IMG/VR virus record: IMGVR_UViG_3300010354_000028
Span: 1-28,389 of that record
Strand: one strand, 5' to 3'
Length of the DNA stretch: 28,389 nucleotides
Source of the DNA: a virus
Both the position numbers and the translations under genes were made by a program. Positions 12,114 through 28,389 of this stretch are shown one piece after another; the first letter of the stretch is position 1, and each line of letters opens with the position of its first letter. The notes beneath the pieces are model-generated. The model was not told the origin of the DNA and did not search any database. It was given only the letters and a program-made list of their open reading frames with translations.

Positions 12114-12138
12114 TGCTCCATAAGTAAGTGATGGAGCA
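12114..12138 (+). promoter_or_regulatory. Inverted repeat covering the start codon of 12131
   Basis: TGCTCCAT (12114-12121) is the perfect complement of ATGGAGCA (12131-12138), with a 9-base loop AAGTAAGTG. The second arm begins with the ATG of the next gene, so the start codon would be base-paired in the mRNA. The alternative GTG start at 12128 lies in the loop. Confidence 0.6.
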
Positions 12139-12520
12139 CGAAAAGTTTATCAAATTTTTACAAGAACACGCAGAACTTGAACAAGTAAGAGCGCCTATCA
12201 CTAGTCAACATCGCGAACCTAATGAACCAGAAACTGTTTGGCGTTTAGGTCAAGAAGTAGCCATTACTAAAAATTCAAATCCCACTCAAAGTGTAAAAAT
12301 TAAACGTCTTAAACCACAGGCCAAAATGTGTGAAGATTGCGGCAAGATCTGTGAAGATCGCGTAATTTATCGTAAATTATACACAGATCCTGTAAAACAT
12401 TGGCGAGAAACCTGTAATGGTTGTCAATTAACTAGAAATCCTACCACTAAACAATTTAGTATTTCAAATAGCATAGTTAATCACTATTTTCAACAGATTT
12501 TACAAAAACGTAATAAATAA
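12131..12520 (+). CDS. Putative zinc-binding protein of unknown function
   Basis: The product is 129 residues from ATG 12131 (a GTG at 12128 would add one). The N-terminal half is charged and helical. Two CxxC pairs (C67/C70 and C95/C98) with C74 and H90 between them suggest a zinc site of treble-clef or ribbon type. I do not recognise the family; the paired cysteines with nearby Arg/Lys residues would fit a nucleic-acid-binding or HNH-like fold, but the catalytic HNH residues are not evident. It has no clear ribosome binding site and its start codon lies in an inverted repeat. The stop codon overlaps a promoter-like AATAAATA. Confidence 0.6.
   Translation: MEHEKFIKFLQEHAELEQVRAPITSQHREPNEPETVWRLGQEVAITKNSNPTQSVKIKRLKPQAKMCEDCGKICEDRVIYRKLYTDPVKHWRETCNGCQLTRNPTTKQFSISNSIVNHYFQQILQKRNK
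12512..12519 (+). promoter_or_regulatory. Late-type promoter element AATAAATA
   Basis: The motif overlaps the stop codon of the preceding gene and has one mismatch to TATAAATA. T4-type spacing would start transcription near 12525, at the foot of the first stem of a structured RNA that ends in an intrinsic terminator. Confidence 0.45.
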
Positions 12521-12523
12521 TTG

Positions 12524-12708
12524 TGTAGATCGCGTTTGCCATTCGTGCTCTACAGATACTTCTGCCATAGTATCTTTGGACTGGGTCCCTTAGTCATGTG
12601 GGGTTCCTTTGAAATGTAGGCTGTCACTTATATTTCTCCTCTCTTCTACCAGTCCAACAACCTATCCTATGGGTTGGATACCCCCCAGCAATTGGGGGGT
12701 ATTTTTTT
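12524..12708 (+). ncRNA. Candidate structured noncoding RNA
   Basis: This gene-free stretch holds a series of perfect stems. P1 is TGTAGA (12524-12529) with TCTACA (12549-12554). P2 is AGATACT (12554-12560) with AGTATCT (12569-12575). P3 is TTGGACTGG (12576-12584) with CCAGTCCAA (12649-12657), enclosing 64 bases. P4 is CAACCTAT (12658-12665) with ATGGGTTG (12669-12676), including one G-U pair. The terminator hairpin follows at once. The stems abut each other almost without gaps, which is unusual by chance. No coding frame of note is seen. A TAAATA-type promoter sits just upstream. It may be an independent RNA of about 185 nt or a structured 3' UTR; no known RNA family was recognised. Confidence 0.55.
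12678..12708 (+). terminator. Strong intrinsic terminator
   Basis: ATACCCCCC (12678-12686) pairs with GGGGGGTAT (12694-12702) around AGCAATT, followed by seven T residues. This is a classic rho-independent terminator that ends the fibre/holin unit and the candidate RNA. Confidence 0.92.
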
Positions 12709-12719
12709 GCCTATTTGTC

Positions 12720-12748
12720 TTGACTTTTATGGTATTTTGCTAAATAAT
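12720..12748 (+). promoter_or_regulatory. Promoter with TTGACT, 17-bp spacer, AATAAT
   Basis: The -35 box TTGACT (12720-12725) and -10 box AATAAT (12743-12748) are 17 bases apart, the sigma70 optimum. The -10 region reads GCTAAATAAT and so also carries the TAAATA motif. It drives the gene starting at 12783, which has AAGGAG upstream. A near twin lies at 15760-15788. Confidence 0.75.
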
Positions 12749-12782
12749 AGTGCGTGACAGCATATCATTTTAAGGAGAATAC

Positions 12783-13538
12783 ATGAATAAATTAAACTCA
12801 AAAGAGATATTGGCTCGTATTTCTGCTGAAAAAAAATCAGCAGGCCGCGAATATAATATCAAGACACTAGACACTATAGACACTATAGATACTAAAAACT
12901 ATAAAACTAAAAACTATGACATCAGTAATGCTTTCGCAAATGACCCTGTCATTGACGCAAAGCAGTTGCCAATTGGCACTTCGTTATCTCTTGGCCAAGA
13001 GATAGAAGAGAAACTTGTTTCTCAAGTGAACCCTGGTGCCGTGATTTTGCCACCTGAAATCTGTTATCTAAGTGCCAGTCTCAAATCACCCAAAACAATT
13101 CGCAGAACTTTGAATGTGGATTTTCGTTTGACAACTACACCAGCAGGCGAATTTAATAAAATGGTATTCAGTCTTACACACAGCAGCAGAGGAAGAGAAT
13201 TTTTTAGCAACATTCCTGAACAATATCACAATGAATGGGAATACCAAGAAGCCTATGCGAAATTTATCATGATTAACAGTAGAGATAAATGGATTGGCAA
13301 AGGACGAGTTAGAGATAAGTTTGTTAAAGGAAATATATTTCGCAACAGCATTGAACTTGGGCTAGCATGTGTGTTAGAACAACGTCAAAGTGTTCCTGTT
13401 GCTCATCTTTGGATTGATGGCAAATATAGAGAAATTACTTTAATGCCAGTAGATAATGCTCAATATCCCTACAGATATGACAGCGAATCAAATTTGGAAA
13501 AAGTTAAGGTGTTGCCTAGAAGGAGCAGTTGGAAATGA
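12783..13538 (+). CDS. Unknown protein with TIDTIDT repeat, first gene of accessory operon
   Basis: The product is 251 residues. Residues 1-25 are basic and helical. Residues 28-45 are a low-complexity stretch (TLDTIDTIDTKNYKTKNYD) encoded by short direct DNA repeats. The remainder (60-251) has no motif I recognise; it is predicted mixed alpha/beta with a basic segment near 175-195 (KWIGKGRVRDKFVKGN). The gene follows a strong sigma70-like promoter and an excellent ribosome binding site, so it is probably expressed early and well, and it starts a run of overlapping genes. A DNA-replication or takeover role is possible from position alone, but nothing in the protein proves it. Confidence 0.7.
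   Translation: MNKLNSKEILARISAEKKSAGREYNIKTLDTIDTIDTKNYKTKNYDISNAFANDPVIDAKQLPIGTSLSLGQEIEEKLVSQVNPGAVILPPEICYLSASLKSPKTIRRTLNVDFRLTTTPAGEFNKMVFSLTHSSRGREFFSNIPEQYHNEWEYQEAYAKFIMINSRDKWIGKGRVRDKFVKGNIFRNSIELGLACVLEQRQSVPVAHLWIDGKYREITLMPVDNAQYPYRYDSESNLEKVKVLPRRSSWK
12863..12917 (+). repeat. Short direct repeats, iteron-like
   Basis: Four head-to-tail copies of a 7-9 bp unit, GACACTA, GACACTATA, GACACTATA and GATACTA (12863-12894), are followed by two copies of ACTAAAAACTAT (12891-12902 and 12906-12917). They lie in the coding region of the 12783 gene, 80 bases after its start. They could be a coding low-complexity tract or a binding array. Confidence 0.7.
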
Positions 13539-14911: not shown

Positions 14912-14939
14912 TTGATTGTTAGCGTAAACATGCTATAAT
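14912..14939 (+). promoter_or_regulatory. Consensus sigma70 promoter with extended -10
   Basis: TTGATT (14912-14917) is 16 bases from a perfect TATAAT (14934-14939), which is preceded by TGC, an extended -10. This is the best host-type promoter in the window. Transcription should start near 14946, exactly at the first base of a 9-bp stem, so the product is probably a small RNA. Confidence 0.85.
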
Positions 14940-14945
14940 ACTAGT

Positions 14946-15043
14946 ACTTTAAAGAAAGGAGGAGTGGTCTTGTTATTCCTTGTGCCTTTAAAGTGATTCT
15001 CTAAGATAGGTGTCTAGCCCCCTGAAATATGGGGGCTTTTTTT
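14946..15043 (+). ncRNA. Candidate small regulatory RNA, about 98 nt
   Basis: From the predicted start, ACTTTAAAG (14946-14954) pairs with CTTTAAAGT (14986-14994), closing a domain in which AAGGA (14956-14960) can pair with TCCTT (14977-14981). The closed domain contains AAAGGAGG, a perfect anti-16S-like purine tract. A single-stranded region leads to a terminator hairpin. No start codon in good context follows the purine tract before the terminator. The combination of its own strong promoter, 5' stem at +1 and terminator is the hallmark of an independent small RNA. No known family was recognised; the target is unknown. Confidence 0.7.
15016..15043 (+). terminator. Strong intrinsic terminator
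   Basis: AGCCCCC (15016-15022) pairs with GGGGGCT (15031-15037) around TGAAATAT, followed by a seven-T run. It ends the candidate small RNA, and is followed 7 bases later by a TAAATA promoter motif. Confidence 0.92.
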
Positions 15044-15465: not shown

Positions 15466-15673
15466 TTGGTGGCAATCAACTTGGGATCCCTATCAACTGT
15501 TGATAGATCACGGTAAGGCTCTGGCCAAGATAGATCACCAGCAGCGTGAATTGGCACAGATACAAAATCAATTGGCTGCCACCATGCGTGATCTTGTCAT
15601 ACAGCACAATGAATTGGTCTCAGTGATTAGAACACACAAACAGGCCATTGAACAATTAAACAAGGATAAATAA
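15458..15673 (+). CDS. Small coiled-coil protein
   Basis: The product is 71 residues. It begins MSDWWQSTWDPYQLLIDHG and continues as one long amphipathic helix (residues 20-70, HQQRELAQIQNQLAATM) with heptad spacing. The start overlaps the upstream gene. It contains no membrane segment or known motif. It may form an oligomer or partner the preceding basic protein. Its stop codon lies in GATAAATA, a promoter-like motif. Confidence 0.6.
   Translation: MSDWWQSTWDPYQLLIDHGKALAKIDHQQRELAQIQNQLAATMRDLVIQHNELVSVIRTHKQAIEQLNKDK
15665..15672 (+). promoter_or_regulatory. Late-type promoter element GATAAATA
   Basis: One mismatch to TATAAATA, overlapping the end of the small coiled-coil gene. A transcript from it would start near 15678 and run only to the terminator ending at 15749. 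Confidence 0.35.
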
Positions 15674-15675
15674 TT

Positions 15676-15692
15676 ATGCCAGTAACTGGCAT
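15676..15692 (+). promoter_or_regulatory. Perfect 17-bp palindrome
   Basis: ATGCCAGT and ACTGGCAT flank a single A. It could be an operator for a dimeric protein or a small RNA hairpin. It also begins a nine-codon reading frame (MPVTGIDIL) preceded by AAGGA. Confidence 0.5.
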
Positions 15693-15715
15693 TGATATTC
15701 TCTAAATCCACTCTG

Positions 15716-15749
15716 AACCCCCGTGAAGCAATTTGCGGGGGTTTTTTTT
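15716..15749 (+). terminator. Strong intrinsic terminator
   Basis: AACCCCCG (15716-15723) pairs with CGGGGGTT (15736-15743) around a 12-base loop, followed by a long T-run (to 15749). It ends the 15076-15673 unit. Confidence 0.92.
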
Positions 15750-15759
15750 ACCTAAAGTC

Positions 15760-15788: not shown

Positions 15789-15806
15789 ACAACAAAGGTG
15801 ACAAAC

Positions 15807-16214
15807 ATGACAAGACTAGAACAAGGCGTAGAATTATGGGGGCAATTTGCCCTAGCACAATTAGATATTAAACGGCGTTTGGGTCACATACCCAGAGACA
15901 ATAAACTAATTTGGGGAGAATATCTACATCGTTGGGACAATGAAGATTGGCGCATGGTATTAGAAGCAGTGGGAGAACTGTTAGAGCGTTATCCTGACCT
16001 ATTCACTACTTCACAGCGCAGAGCCTTTGTACACACAGTACAAACTCTGTTAAAATATGAACATGATCATGATCGTTGTCTAGATACCAAATTGACCAAA
16101 TCAACCACATGGGAAATGTCAATGGTATTGAGAGAACTGTGGGTCAAGTGTCAAGAACCCCTAAAGCCAAGACCAGTTAAAGGTCTAAGTTCATGGCAAT
16201 CACTGTTTGAATAA
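15807..16214 (+). CDS. Unknown helical protein upstream of the terminase
   Basis: The product is 135 residues, almost all helical and Trp-rich (MTRLEQGVELWGQFALAQL; IWGEYLHRWDNEDWRMVLEA). ATG 15807 has AAAGGTG 6 bases before it; an in-frame GTG at 15798 is less likely. No known family is recognised. It is transcribed from its own strong promoter, just ahead of the terminase small subunit, so a role in packaging or its regulation is conceivable. A weak AT-rich hairpin follows the stop. Confidence 0.65.
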   Translation: MTRLEQGVELWGQFALAQLDIKRRLGHIPRDNKLIWGEYLHRWDNEDWRMVLEAVGELLERYPDLFTTSQRRAFVHTVQTLLKYEHDHDRCLDTKLTKSTTWEMSMVLRELWVKCQEPLKPRPVKGLSSWQSLFE

Positions 16215-19947: not shown

Positions 19948-19955
19948 TATAAATA
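19948..19955 (+). promoter_or_regulatory. Exact T4-type late promoter element TATAAATA
   Basis: This is the full consensus octamer, placed 10 bases after a terminator and 41 bases before the scaffold start codon, with no recognisable -35 box. It would drive the scaffold, capsid and tail-tube genes, which are the most highly expressed late products. Confidence 0.6.
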
Positions 19956-19988: not shown

Positions 19989-20669
19989 ATGAGCGATCAA
20001 TCATTGGCCACAGAGGTAACAGATACCGCAGGTGATAACCTTGAAAATCTGGCAAGCGCAGCTAAAACTTACACGCAAGAAGAATTTGACCGTCACATGG
20101 CAGGCCTAAAGGCCAGTATTGCTAAGAAGTATGAAAAACAACTTGGCATTTACGCAGAGCTAGGTGATATTGAACAACTCAAGCAGCTCAAAACTGAAGC
20201 AGAAAAGCGTCAGCAAGAGCAACAGTTAAAGCGTGGAGAATTTGAAAAGATTCTTCAAGAAAAAGCGCAAAAATGGGAGTCTGAAATCCAACGCAGAGAT
20301 TCAGTTATTAAAGAGTACAAGGTCAACACTCCACTGTTGAGCGCAGCAGCAAACATGCGAGCTGTGGCTCCAGAACAAGTCAAAGCCCTACTCAATAATA
20401 ATGTTAGATTGAACGCAGATGGTGAAGTTGAAGTTGTGGATAGCAAAGGAGCCGTTCGCTATAGCGATAAAGGCAGTCCACTATCCGTGGAAGATCTAGT
20501 GCGAGAGTTCTTAGATTTAAATCCGCATTTTGTTCAACCAGCACCAGCAACTACTAATACAAAGAGTAGCCATGTTGCGGACAATGTCAAAATTGATATC
20601 TCTAAATTAGATATGCGGAATCCAGAGCATAGAAAGATCTATGCCGCTGCCACTAAGAAAGGCAGATAA
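19989..20669 (+). CDS. Capsid scaffolding protein
   Basis: The product is 226 residues. It is highly charged and helical, with a long coiled-coil stretch (about residues 30-115, QLKTEAEKRQQEQQLKRGEF), a small central globular part (APEQVKALLNNNVRLNADGE), and a basic C-terminal end (RNPEHRKIYAAATKKGR). It precedes the major capsid protein gene directly. These properties and position fit a scaffold that guides capsid assembly and then leaves. No protease domain is seen, and none is found elsewhere. The TAGGAGG site lies 9 bases before the ATG. Confidence 0.88.
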   Translation: MSDQSLATEVTDTAGDNLENLASAAKTYTQEEFDRHMAGLKASIAKKYEKQLGIYAELGDIEQLKQLKTEAEKRQQEQQLKRGEFEKILQEKAQKWESEIQRRDSVIKEYKVNTPLLSAAANMRAVAPEQVKALLNNNVRLNADGEVEVVDSKGAVRYSDKGSPLSVEDLVREFLDLNPHFVQPAPATTNTKSSHVADNVKIDISKLDMRNPEHRKIYAAATKKGR

Positions 20670-27516: not shown

Positions 27517-28271
27517 GTTGGATAGATGACATTGTAAGTTTAGGTAGTTCTGCTCTTAATTTTCTAGGTGGCAACACCATAGGCAGCGCATTGGCTCGCA
27601 CCGCAGTCACAGGATTGGTGTTGAATCAAGTGGCCAAAAGTATCAACAAAGACAATCAAGTAGAAGAAAAAGGCACTAGAGTACAAGTAGATCCTGATCC
27701 AGATTATCGTATACCTGTGGTCTATGGAGAAGCAGTGGTTTCAGGTGCTGTGGTAGATGCTCAATTAACCAATGGCAATACCACAATGTATTATTGCCTT
27801 GTGCTCAGTGAAAAAACAGGACGAGTAGCATTGGGCGCTGGTGGTCAAAGCACGTTCAATATTTTAGATGTCTATTGGAATGACAATAGATTGGTCTTTG
27901 GTTCAAATACCACAGTCAGCGGTTATGTTGATAAATCAAATAATTTCTGTGAAGATATTGCTGGTAAAATTTCTGTATATTTTTATGATGGCAATTCAAC
28001 CACACCAAGAGCACCCAGTGGATATCCTGTGGGCAGTATAGGTCCAGCTTATAATTATATGCCTAATTGGACTGTGAATCATAACATGACCAATTTGGTA
28101 TTTGCCATTGTTAGAATGGACTATGACGCAGAAGCCAAAACTACCAGCTTGGGTAATTTTAGATTTAAAATTAGAAATTCAATGAGTCAACCTGGTGATT
28201 GTCTCTATGATTACATGACCAATACACGTTATGGTGCTGGTATAGACCCTGCGGAGATTTACGCATCATGA
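27513..28271 (+). CDS. gpJ-like tail-tip protein, N-terminal part
   Basis: The product is 252 residues. It begins with an amphipathic segment (MSWIDDIVSLGSSALNFLG), then a beta domain with PDYRIPVVYGEAVVSGAVVD, as in lambda gpJ-like central tail proteins. It ends just after CLYDYMTNTRYGAGIDPAEI, a conserved gpJ point where the protein normally continues for hundreds of residues. Here a TGA stops it, and the ATG of the next gene overlaps that stop as ATGA. The continuation is at 2-2020 (short piece plus inserted adhesin) and 2024-3859. The three must meet in the tail tip if all are functional. Confidence 0.88.
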   Translation: MSWIDDIVSLGSSALNFLGGNTIGSALARTAVTGLVLNQVAKSINKDNQVEEKGTRVQVDPDPDYRIPVVYGEAVVSGAVVDAQLTNGNTTMYYCLVLSEKTGRVALGAGGQSTFNILDVYWNDNRLVFGSNTTVSGYVDKSNNFCEDIAGKISVYFYDGNSTTPRAPSGYPVGSIGPAYNYMPNWTVNHNMTNLVFAIVRMDYDAEAKTTSLGNFRFKIRNSMSQPGDCLYDYMTNTRYGAGIDPAEIYAS

Positions 28272-28389
28272 ACAGTCTACAAGAATTAAACACATTTGGC
28301 AGTGAAACATTAGATGTCTTAGACAATAGACCCAGTGGTGTTAAATTTAATCGTGAATATCCATTAATTGCTCAGGATCAAACATTTAC
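28267..28389. repeat. Direct terminal repeat, right copy
   Basis: This is an exact copy of bases 1-123. It contains the last codons of the gpJ N-terminal gene (stop at 28269-28271) and the first 40 codons of the gene that starts at base 2. The genes either side of the junction therefore overlap by ATGA in the circular map. Confidence 0.95.

Follow-up and report, generated by a model that had tools for sequence, protein, structure and literature searches.

A conserved family of small structured phage RNAs whose loops may pair with the adjacent downstream transcript

The window—the whole stretch of DNA analyzed here, 28,389 bases long—is an IMG/VR virus record that carries, among its genes, those for a terminase, a portal and a major head protein. 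Its terminal 123 bases are identical (1–123 and 28267–28389), and the record is probably a circular assembly that is complete, at about 28.27 kb. No replication gene was recognized among the ten window proteins scanned. The subject of this report, a structured RNA of 184 nt (12525–12708, + strand), belongs to a family whose members lie between a small cysteine-rich gene and the transcription unit that follows, upstream of terL. The gene before it in the window (12131–12520, +) encodes 129 aa, with conserved CEDC and CxxC cysteines that look zinc-ribbon-like by inspection; a homologue precedes the RNA in L002, L004, L013, L014 and L087. The gene after it (12783–13538, +; 251 aa), its putative target, has a relative at the same position in L055, and matched no family in PHROG or Pfam.

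Searches at the protein level that used only the two flanking genes returned no matches, and DNA searches of isolate phage genomes and plasmids returned none of relevance; it was a search with terL, which yielded 80 loci, that opened the RNA family. No tRNA or tmRNA was found. Scans of the window and its relatives against Rfam gave no match at the gathering score, 6S and the phage packaging RNA families included, and nothing at E-values up to 10, the best sub-threshold hit being to anti-hemB (20.9 bits against the 49.5 needed), over the terminator part.

Folded as RNA, the + strand of 12512–12708 reaches −70.5 kcal/mol, compared with −46.5 ± 4.0 for 200 dinucleotide shuffles (z −6.0); the minus strand folds less stably (z −3.3). 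A first-pass annotation, made from the letters, had proposed a structured RNA here and a comparison of its free energy with that of shuffled sequence: all of the stems it named exist, and none of the 200 shuffles folds as well. Its text spoke of five stems and its title of four, and it is the text that agrees with the outer stems found, H1 to H5. H1 (12525–12553), where the RNA is assumed to start in giving its length as 184 nt, has 5 + 4 bp flanking a mismatch and the apical loop TTTGCCATT; H2 (12554–12575) has 7 bp and the loop TCTGCCAT; H3 is a closing stem of 9 bp (12576–12584 with 12649–12657); H4 (12658–12676) has 8 bp; and H5 (12677–12708) is an intrinsic terminator, as had been claimed for this end, with an 11-bp stem (12677–12703) and then a T-run. 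The arms of H3 were said to enclose 64 bases, and exactly 64 nt lie between them, but the account of that domain was incomplete, for it missed two hairpins: H3a (12587–12603), with the loop AGTCATGT at 12592–12599, and H3b (12611–12636), with 10 bp and the loop GCTGTCAC at 12620–12627.

Homologues occupy the same place in at least 23 other phage contigs. The set, extended to 24 with the window by motif and pattern searches from the terL loci, comprises three RNAs of a long type (window, L004 and L002), twenty of a short type, and one that is divergent (L055). L095, L158 and L163 closely resemble other members, and L151 and L161 have identical RNAs. Among the terL loci that extend far enough upstream, the homologue of the 129-aa gene is recognizable in L002, L004, L013 and L014, and in each its stop codon is followed directly by an ATAAATA-like sequence, a region of several hairpins, and a terminator. 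Pattern matches without the arrangement—L091, L092, L093, L099, L152, L154, L156, L157, L159, L160, L162, L168, L173 and L175, and all 35 from the genome collection—were treated as chance.

Preservation of the stems in relatives had been set beforehand as the test of the proposal, and the stems are kept, with compensatory changes. Among sixteen short-type sequences, 11 of the 23 consensus pairs have changed on both sides, and 97.8% of cells are paired, against 39–52% when the partners are slid by one to three columns; none of 500 shuffles reaches the observed percentage paired or the observed covariation score. In the hairpin around UAYUGCCAUU all six stem pairs vary, and the loop is constant. 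The long-type stems are mostly substituted with pairing retained: H1 is paired in L004 and L002 despite a different sequence, its loop keeping TGCCAT, and H3 has nine pairs in all three members (TTGGACTGG/CCAGTCCAA in the window, TGGATTGGC/GCCAATCCA in L004, GGTGTTAGG/CCTAACATC in L002). What is fixed across the family are the loop sequences UGCCAU and CUGUCA, and the order of these along the molecule is reversed between the short type and the long. UGCCAU is unpaired in nearly all members and CUGUCA in most, the latter being predicted wholly or partly paired in L013, L018, L090, L095 and L150. That the loops stay constant while the stems beneath them change suggests some contact made by the loops. 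The RNA at 12525–12708 is a member of a real, conserved, and previously undescribed family of phage small RNAs.

The octamer noted at the first pass just upstream of the stems, TAAATAAT at 12514–12521, is part of the probable promoter of the small RNA (12478–12521, +), which includes an upstream element (TAATCACTATTTTCA...), has a weak −35-like part, and overlaps the 3′ end of the 129-aa gene. The promoter of the next transcript (12720–12748, +) is a good sigma-70-like one, TTGACT-17-AATAAT, and contains the same octamer. A common bipartite element, roughly TCACATTTAACCCTGAT and then TAAATA, stands before the RNA and before the next unit; a profile of the downstream promoters, applied leave-one-out, fits best at the identical TAAATA spacing for 18 of the 24 RNAs, and only 12514, 12741 and 19950 lie above its threshold in the window. 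The upstream element falls partly in coding sequence, where some of the conservation may be protein-driven; we read it as promoter because it agrees with the non-coding downstream copy, and it is probable that the RNA and the next transcript are each served by this shared element.

Similar signals occur elsewhere in the window. The profile match at 19950 is just upstream of a gene at 19989, which precedes the major head protein gene. The octamer is present on the + strand at five places (12514, 12741, 15667, 15781 and 16258), all of them gene ends or starts. At 15667–15750, and at L004:4240–4330, a gene end is followed by TAAATAA, a short hairpin, a terminator and then a promoter, a layout that resembles in miniature the one at 12514. 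Finally, 14912–15037 has a promoter-like TTGATT-16-TATAAT, a terminator within 100 nt, and the pair ACTTTAAAG/CTTTAAAGT around AAAGGAGGA, and is a second small-RNA candidate.

The first-pass annotation had left the choice between a stand-alone RNA and a structured 3′ UTR. The former is strongly supported by the conserved stems with their compensatory changes, the shared promoter element, and the RNA's own terminator; a purely 3′-UTR role is made less likely by the conservation of the loops, and not of the stems alone. That the region is the ordinary 3′-UTR of the upstream operon—a hairpin stack protecting the 3′ end, plus a terminator—would account for its position directly after a stop codon and for the way it ends, but invariant loops, an order of loops that is permuted between types, and a shared promoter are unexpected in a passive 3′ end, and we consider this quite improbable.

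What the loops might contact is suggested by the start of the next transcript, a few bases past TAAATA, where most relatives have (G)TGACAG, which is complementary to the CUGUCA loop. In the window, the leader element GTGACAGC (12754–12761, +) is a perfect complement of the H3b loop, and the complementarity, GCUGUCAC/GUGACAGC, amounts to 8 bp. Where the leader varies, the loop is usually still complementary. The most telling case is the compensatory one of L023, in which the loop is CUGUUA and the leader UAACAG; in L155/L163 and in L170, a leader with CAGCAG is complementary, in a shifted register, to UUGCUG in the loop; and between the window (loop GGCUGUC, leader GACAGC) and L002/L004 (GGCCUGUC, GACAGGC) one base has been lost on both the loop side and the leader side. 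Within a 24-nt leader, and compared with 24-mers drawn at random from the same contigs, the contact has a combined p of about 2e-7 over 11 lineages, a value that is too optimistic since the lineages share ancestry, and from which L161 was left out because its leader had been picked by motif. Cognate loop–leader pairs bind better than swapped ones (permutation p 0.02), and the contact is weak or absent in L013, L055, L150, L158 and L169. The complementarity and its partial covariation are there to be seen; that the two RNAs do pair is what we infer from them, and for this the evidence is good but not final.

Three other explanations bear on the same sequences. The inverted CTGTCAC/GTGACAG repeat might be a DNA operator, a reading that is disfavored because the RNA copy of CTGTCAC sits mostly in an apical loop. 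Alternatively, the pairing might occur in cis: transcripts that read through from the upstream operon would hold both RNA and leader, and loop–leader pairing would then form an attenuator or a translation switch. The upstream gene's stop codon does mark the start of the RNA, which shares a strand with its target, but a strong terminator separates RNA from leader in the members examined, and each half carries its own copy of the shared promoter element, all of which makes a cis element rather improbable. The main rival is that the RNA binds protein, its repeated GYCA loop motif sequestering or localizing a phage or host protein in the manner of a CsrB-type sponge. GYCA occurs in all four apical loops of the window RNA (UGCCAU, UGCCAU, AGUCAU and UGUCAC) and in two or three of those of relatives, and loop sequence is far more conserved than the stems. 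A protein site, however, would not require the loop of L023 to change together with its leader, nor complementarity to the leader to recur across lineages, and there are no GGA loops like those of CsrB; we think protein binding unlikely.

If the RNA instead acts by pairing, a second contact may lie at start codons. The UGCCAU loop matches the AUGGCA start of the first downstream gene over 9 bp in L002, 8 in L013, 7 in L023, L088, L155, L163 and L169, and 6 in L087 (combined p 8.5e-5, again too optimistic for reasons of shared ancestry). AUGGCA begins four of six unrelated first genes, against a share of 10.6% among the gene starts of these contigs (p 0.0016), and in relatives that have no gene there UGCCAU mostly matches UGGCAA. 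The window (p 0.81), L004 and L055 show no contact through UGCCAU. In the window it is the H3a loop, AGUCAUGU, that is complementary to the ACAUGA spanning the next gene's start codon (ACATGA, 12781–12786, +), over 6 bp, a match that is weak alone. This loop is present in the window and L004 and replaced in L002. It also has 7 bp of complementarity (ACAUGAC), and the H3b loop 6 bp, to GTGACAAACATGAC at 15798–15811 (+), before and at the start codon of gene 15807–16214. L004, the other carrier of the loop, keeps ACATGAC at its copy of that gene, and L002 has neither the loop nor, by tblastn, a homologue of the gene; the co-occurrence is at most suggestive of a possible second target. The idea that UGCCAU loops block all phage gene starts was rejected for the window, where the generic complementarity of the loops to gene starts is not above background. 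Moreover, roughly half of the relatives lack a gene start close to the leader of the downstream transcript, and blocking of start codons therefore cannot account for the whole role.

In many relatives the downstream transcript is a second structured RNA. A non-coding RNA of ~390 nt occurs in the downstream unit of eight members (L002:3329–3733, L004:1682–2072, L014:945–1317, L018:3350–3735, L087:4912–5300, L095:7191–7577, L161:4446–4831 and L170:2827–3217, the last on the minus strand). Its covariation is strong, with changes on both sides in 26 of 92 consensus pairs. It had no match in Rfam in the loci scanned, nor in the isolate phage collection, and six loci with the small RNA and non-coding neighbors had none in Rfam at E-values up to 1. 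The study of the small RNA has thus led to a further phage RNA, undescribed and covarying. At its place in L090, L094, L150, L153, L166, L088 and L013 are other non-coding sequences, apparently of three further types; that of L090 looks similar by eye to a stretch of phage DSL-LC06 (L097, about 730–1300) that contains no genes. From the window the ~390-nt RNA is absent, and a protein gene occupies its place. Tentatively, and with more doubt than conviction, one can imagine a two-RNA system in which the small RNA serves these larger neighbors (~390 nt and other) as a dedicated partner or regulator, and in which, in the window's lineage, a protein gene has replaced the large RNA while the small RNA and the leader were kept.

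Our best reading, which we favor only slightly over its being wrong, is that the RNA at 12525–12708 acts as an antisense riboregulator on the transcript immediately downstream. The phage would transcribe the small structured RNA independently, and its hairpin loops would present two or more short conserved sequences, CUGUCA and UGCCAU, together with AGUCAUG in the window. The CUGUCA loop would pair with the first nucleotides of the adjacent transcript (GUGACAG), and a second loop with the sequence around the start codon of the first gene downstream, which is AUGGCA in most gene-bearing relatives and ACAUGA in the window. The likely effect would be to repress initiation of translation or to destabilize the neighboring transcript; that the direction is repression, and what purpose this might serve in the infection cycle, is supposition on our part. 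The first-pass annotation had guessed at packaging RNA, a decoy, or host regulation, and for none of these is there specific support, the evidence favoring a pairing with the next phage transcript. The RNA does lie a few kb upstream of terL in relatives that have both on a contig, as a packaging or virion RNA might. But there is no similarity to the packaging RNA families known in Rfam, and the data at hand give no pointer to packaging machinery or to host transcripts, so that a role in the virion, or on targets in the host, strikes us as very improbable.

Among known systems the nearest in concept is c4 RNA (RF01695), which is encoded just upstream of its target and on the same strand. The likeness lies in the complementarity of loops to the start region of a neighboring downstream mRNA, with exceptions. 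The RF01695 covariance model gave no match here at the gathering score or at E-values up to 10. In P1 and P7, short complementary sequences of c4, a structured RNA, are believed to occupy loops and to base-pair around a phage mRNA's ribosome binding site (PMC12197685), and c4, acting in trans, represses the synthesis of Ant (PMC8546580); Citron and Schuster 1992 (cited in PMC8546580) describe it in their title as a processed 77-base RNA. The window RNA, in contrast, has probable promoter elements of its own, and a terminator before the target, and its sequence argues against processing from a longer transcript. The contact would involve the very first nucleotides of the target, and the target gene here has no family match that would make it an antirepressor; in many relatives the target is a structured non-coding RNA. 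OOP RNA of lambda and sar RNA of P22 are phage antisense RNAs that lower the expression of a phage gene (PMC12197685), but they are transcribed from the strand opposite their targets and have long complementarity, whereas the window RNA is on the same strand, upstream, with loop contacts of 6–10 bp. CsrB/C RNAs have repeated GGA loops; the loops here are UGCCAU, UGCCAU, AGUCAUG and CUGUCA. GOLLD and ROOL are large structured non-coding RNAs of bacteria, phages and metagenomes (PMC12286853), and comparison with these concerns the ~390-nt neighbor of relatives only, not the 184-nt RNA. Most known antisense RNAs of phages come from temperate model phages. The structured small RNA described here is conserved across an uncultured phage group; its loops keep their sequence while the stems, and even the order of the loops, change, and it is tied to the neighboring transcript by complementarity, offering what may be a concrete regulatory pair in phages whose functional annotation is very sparse.
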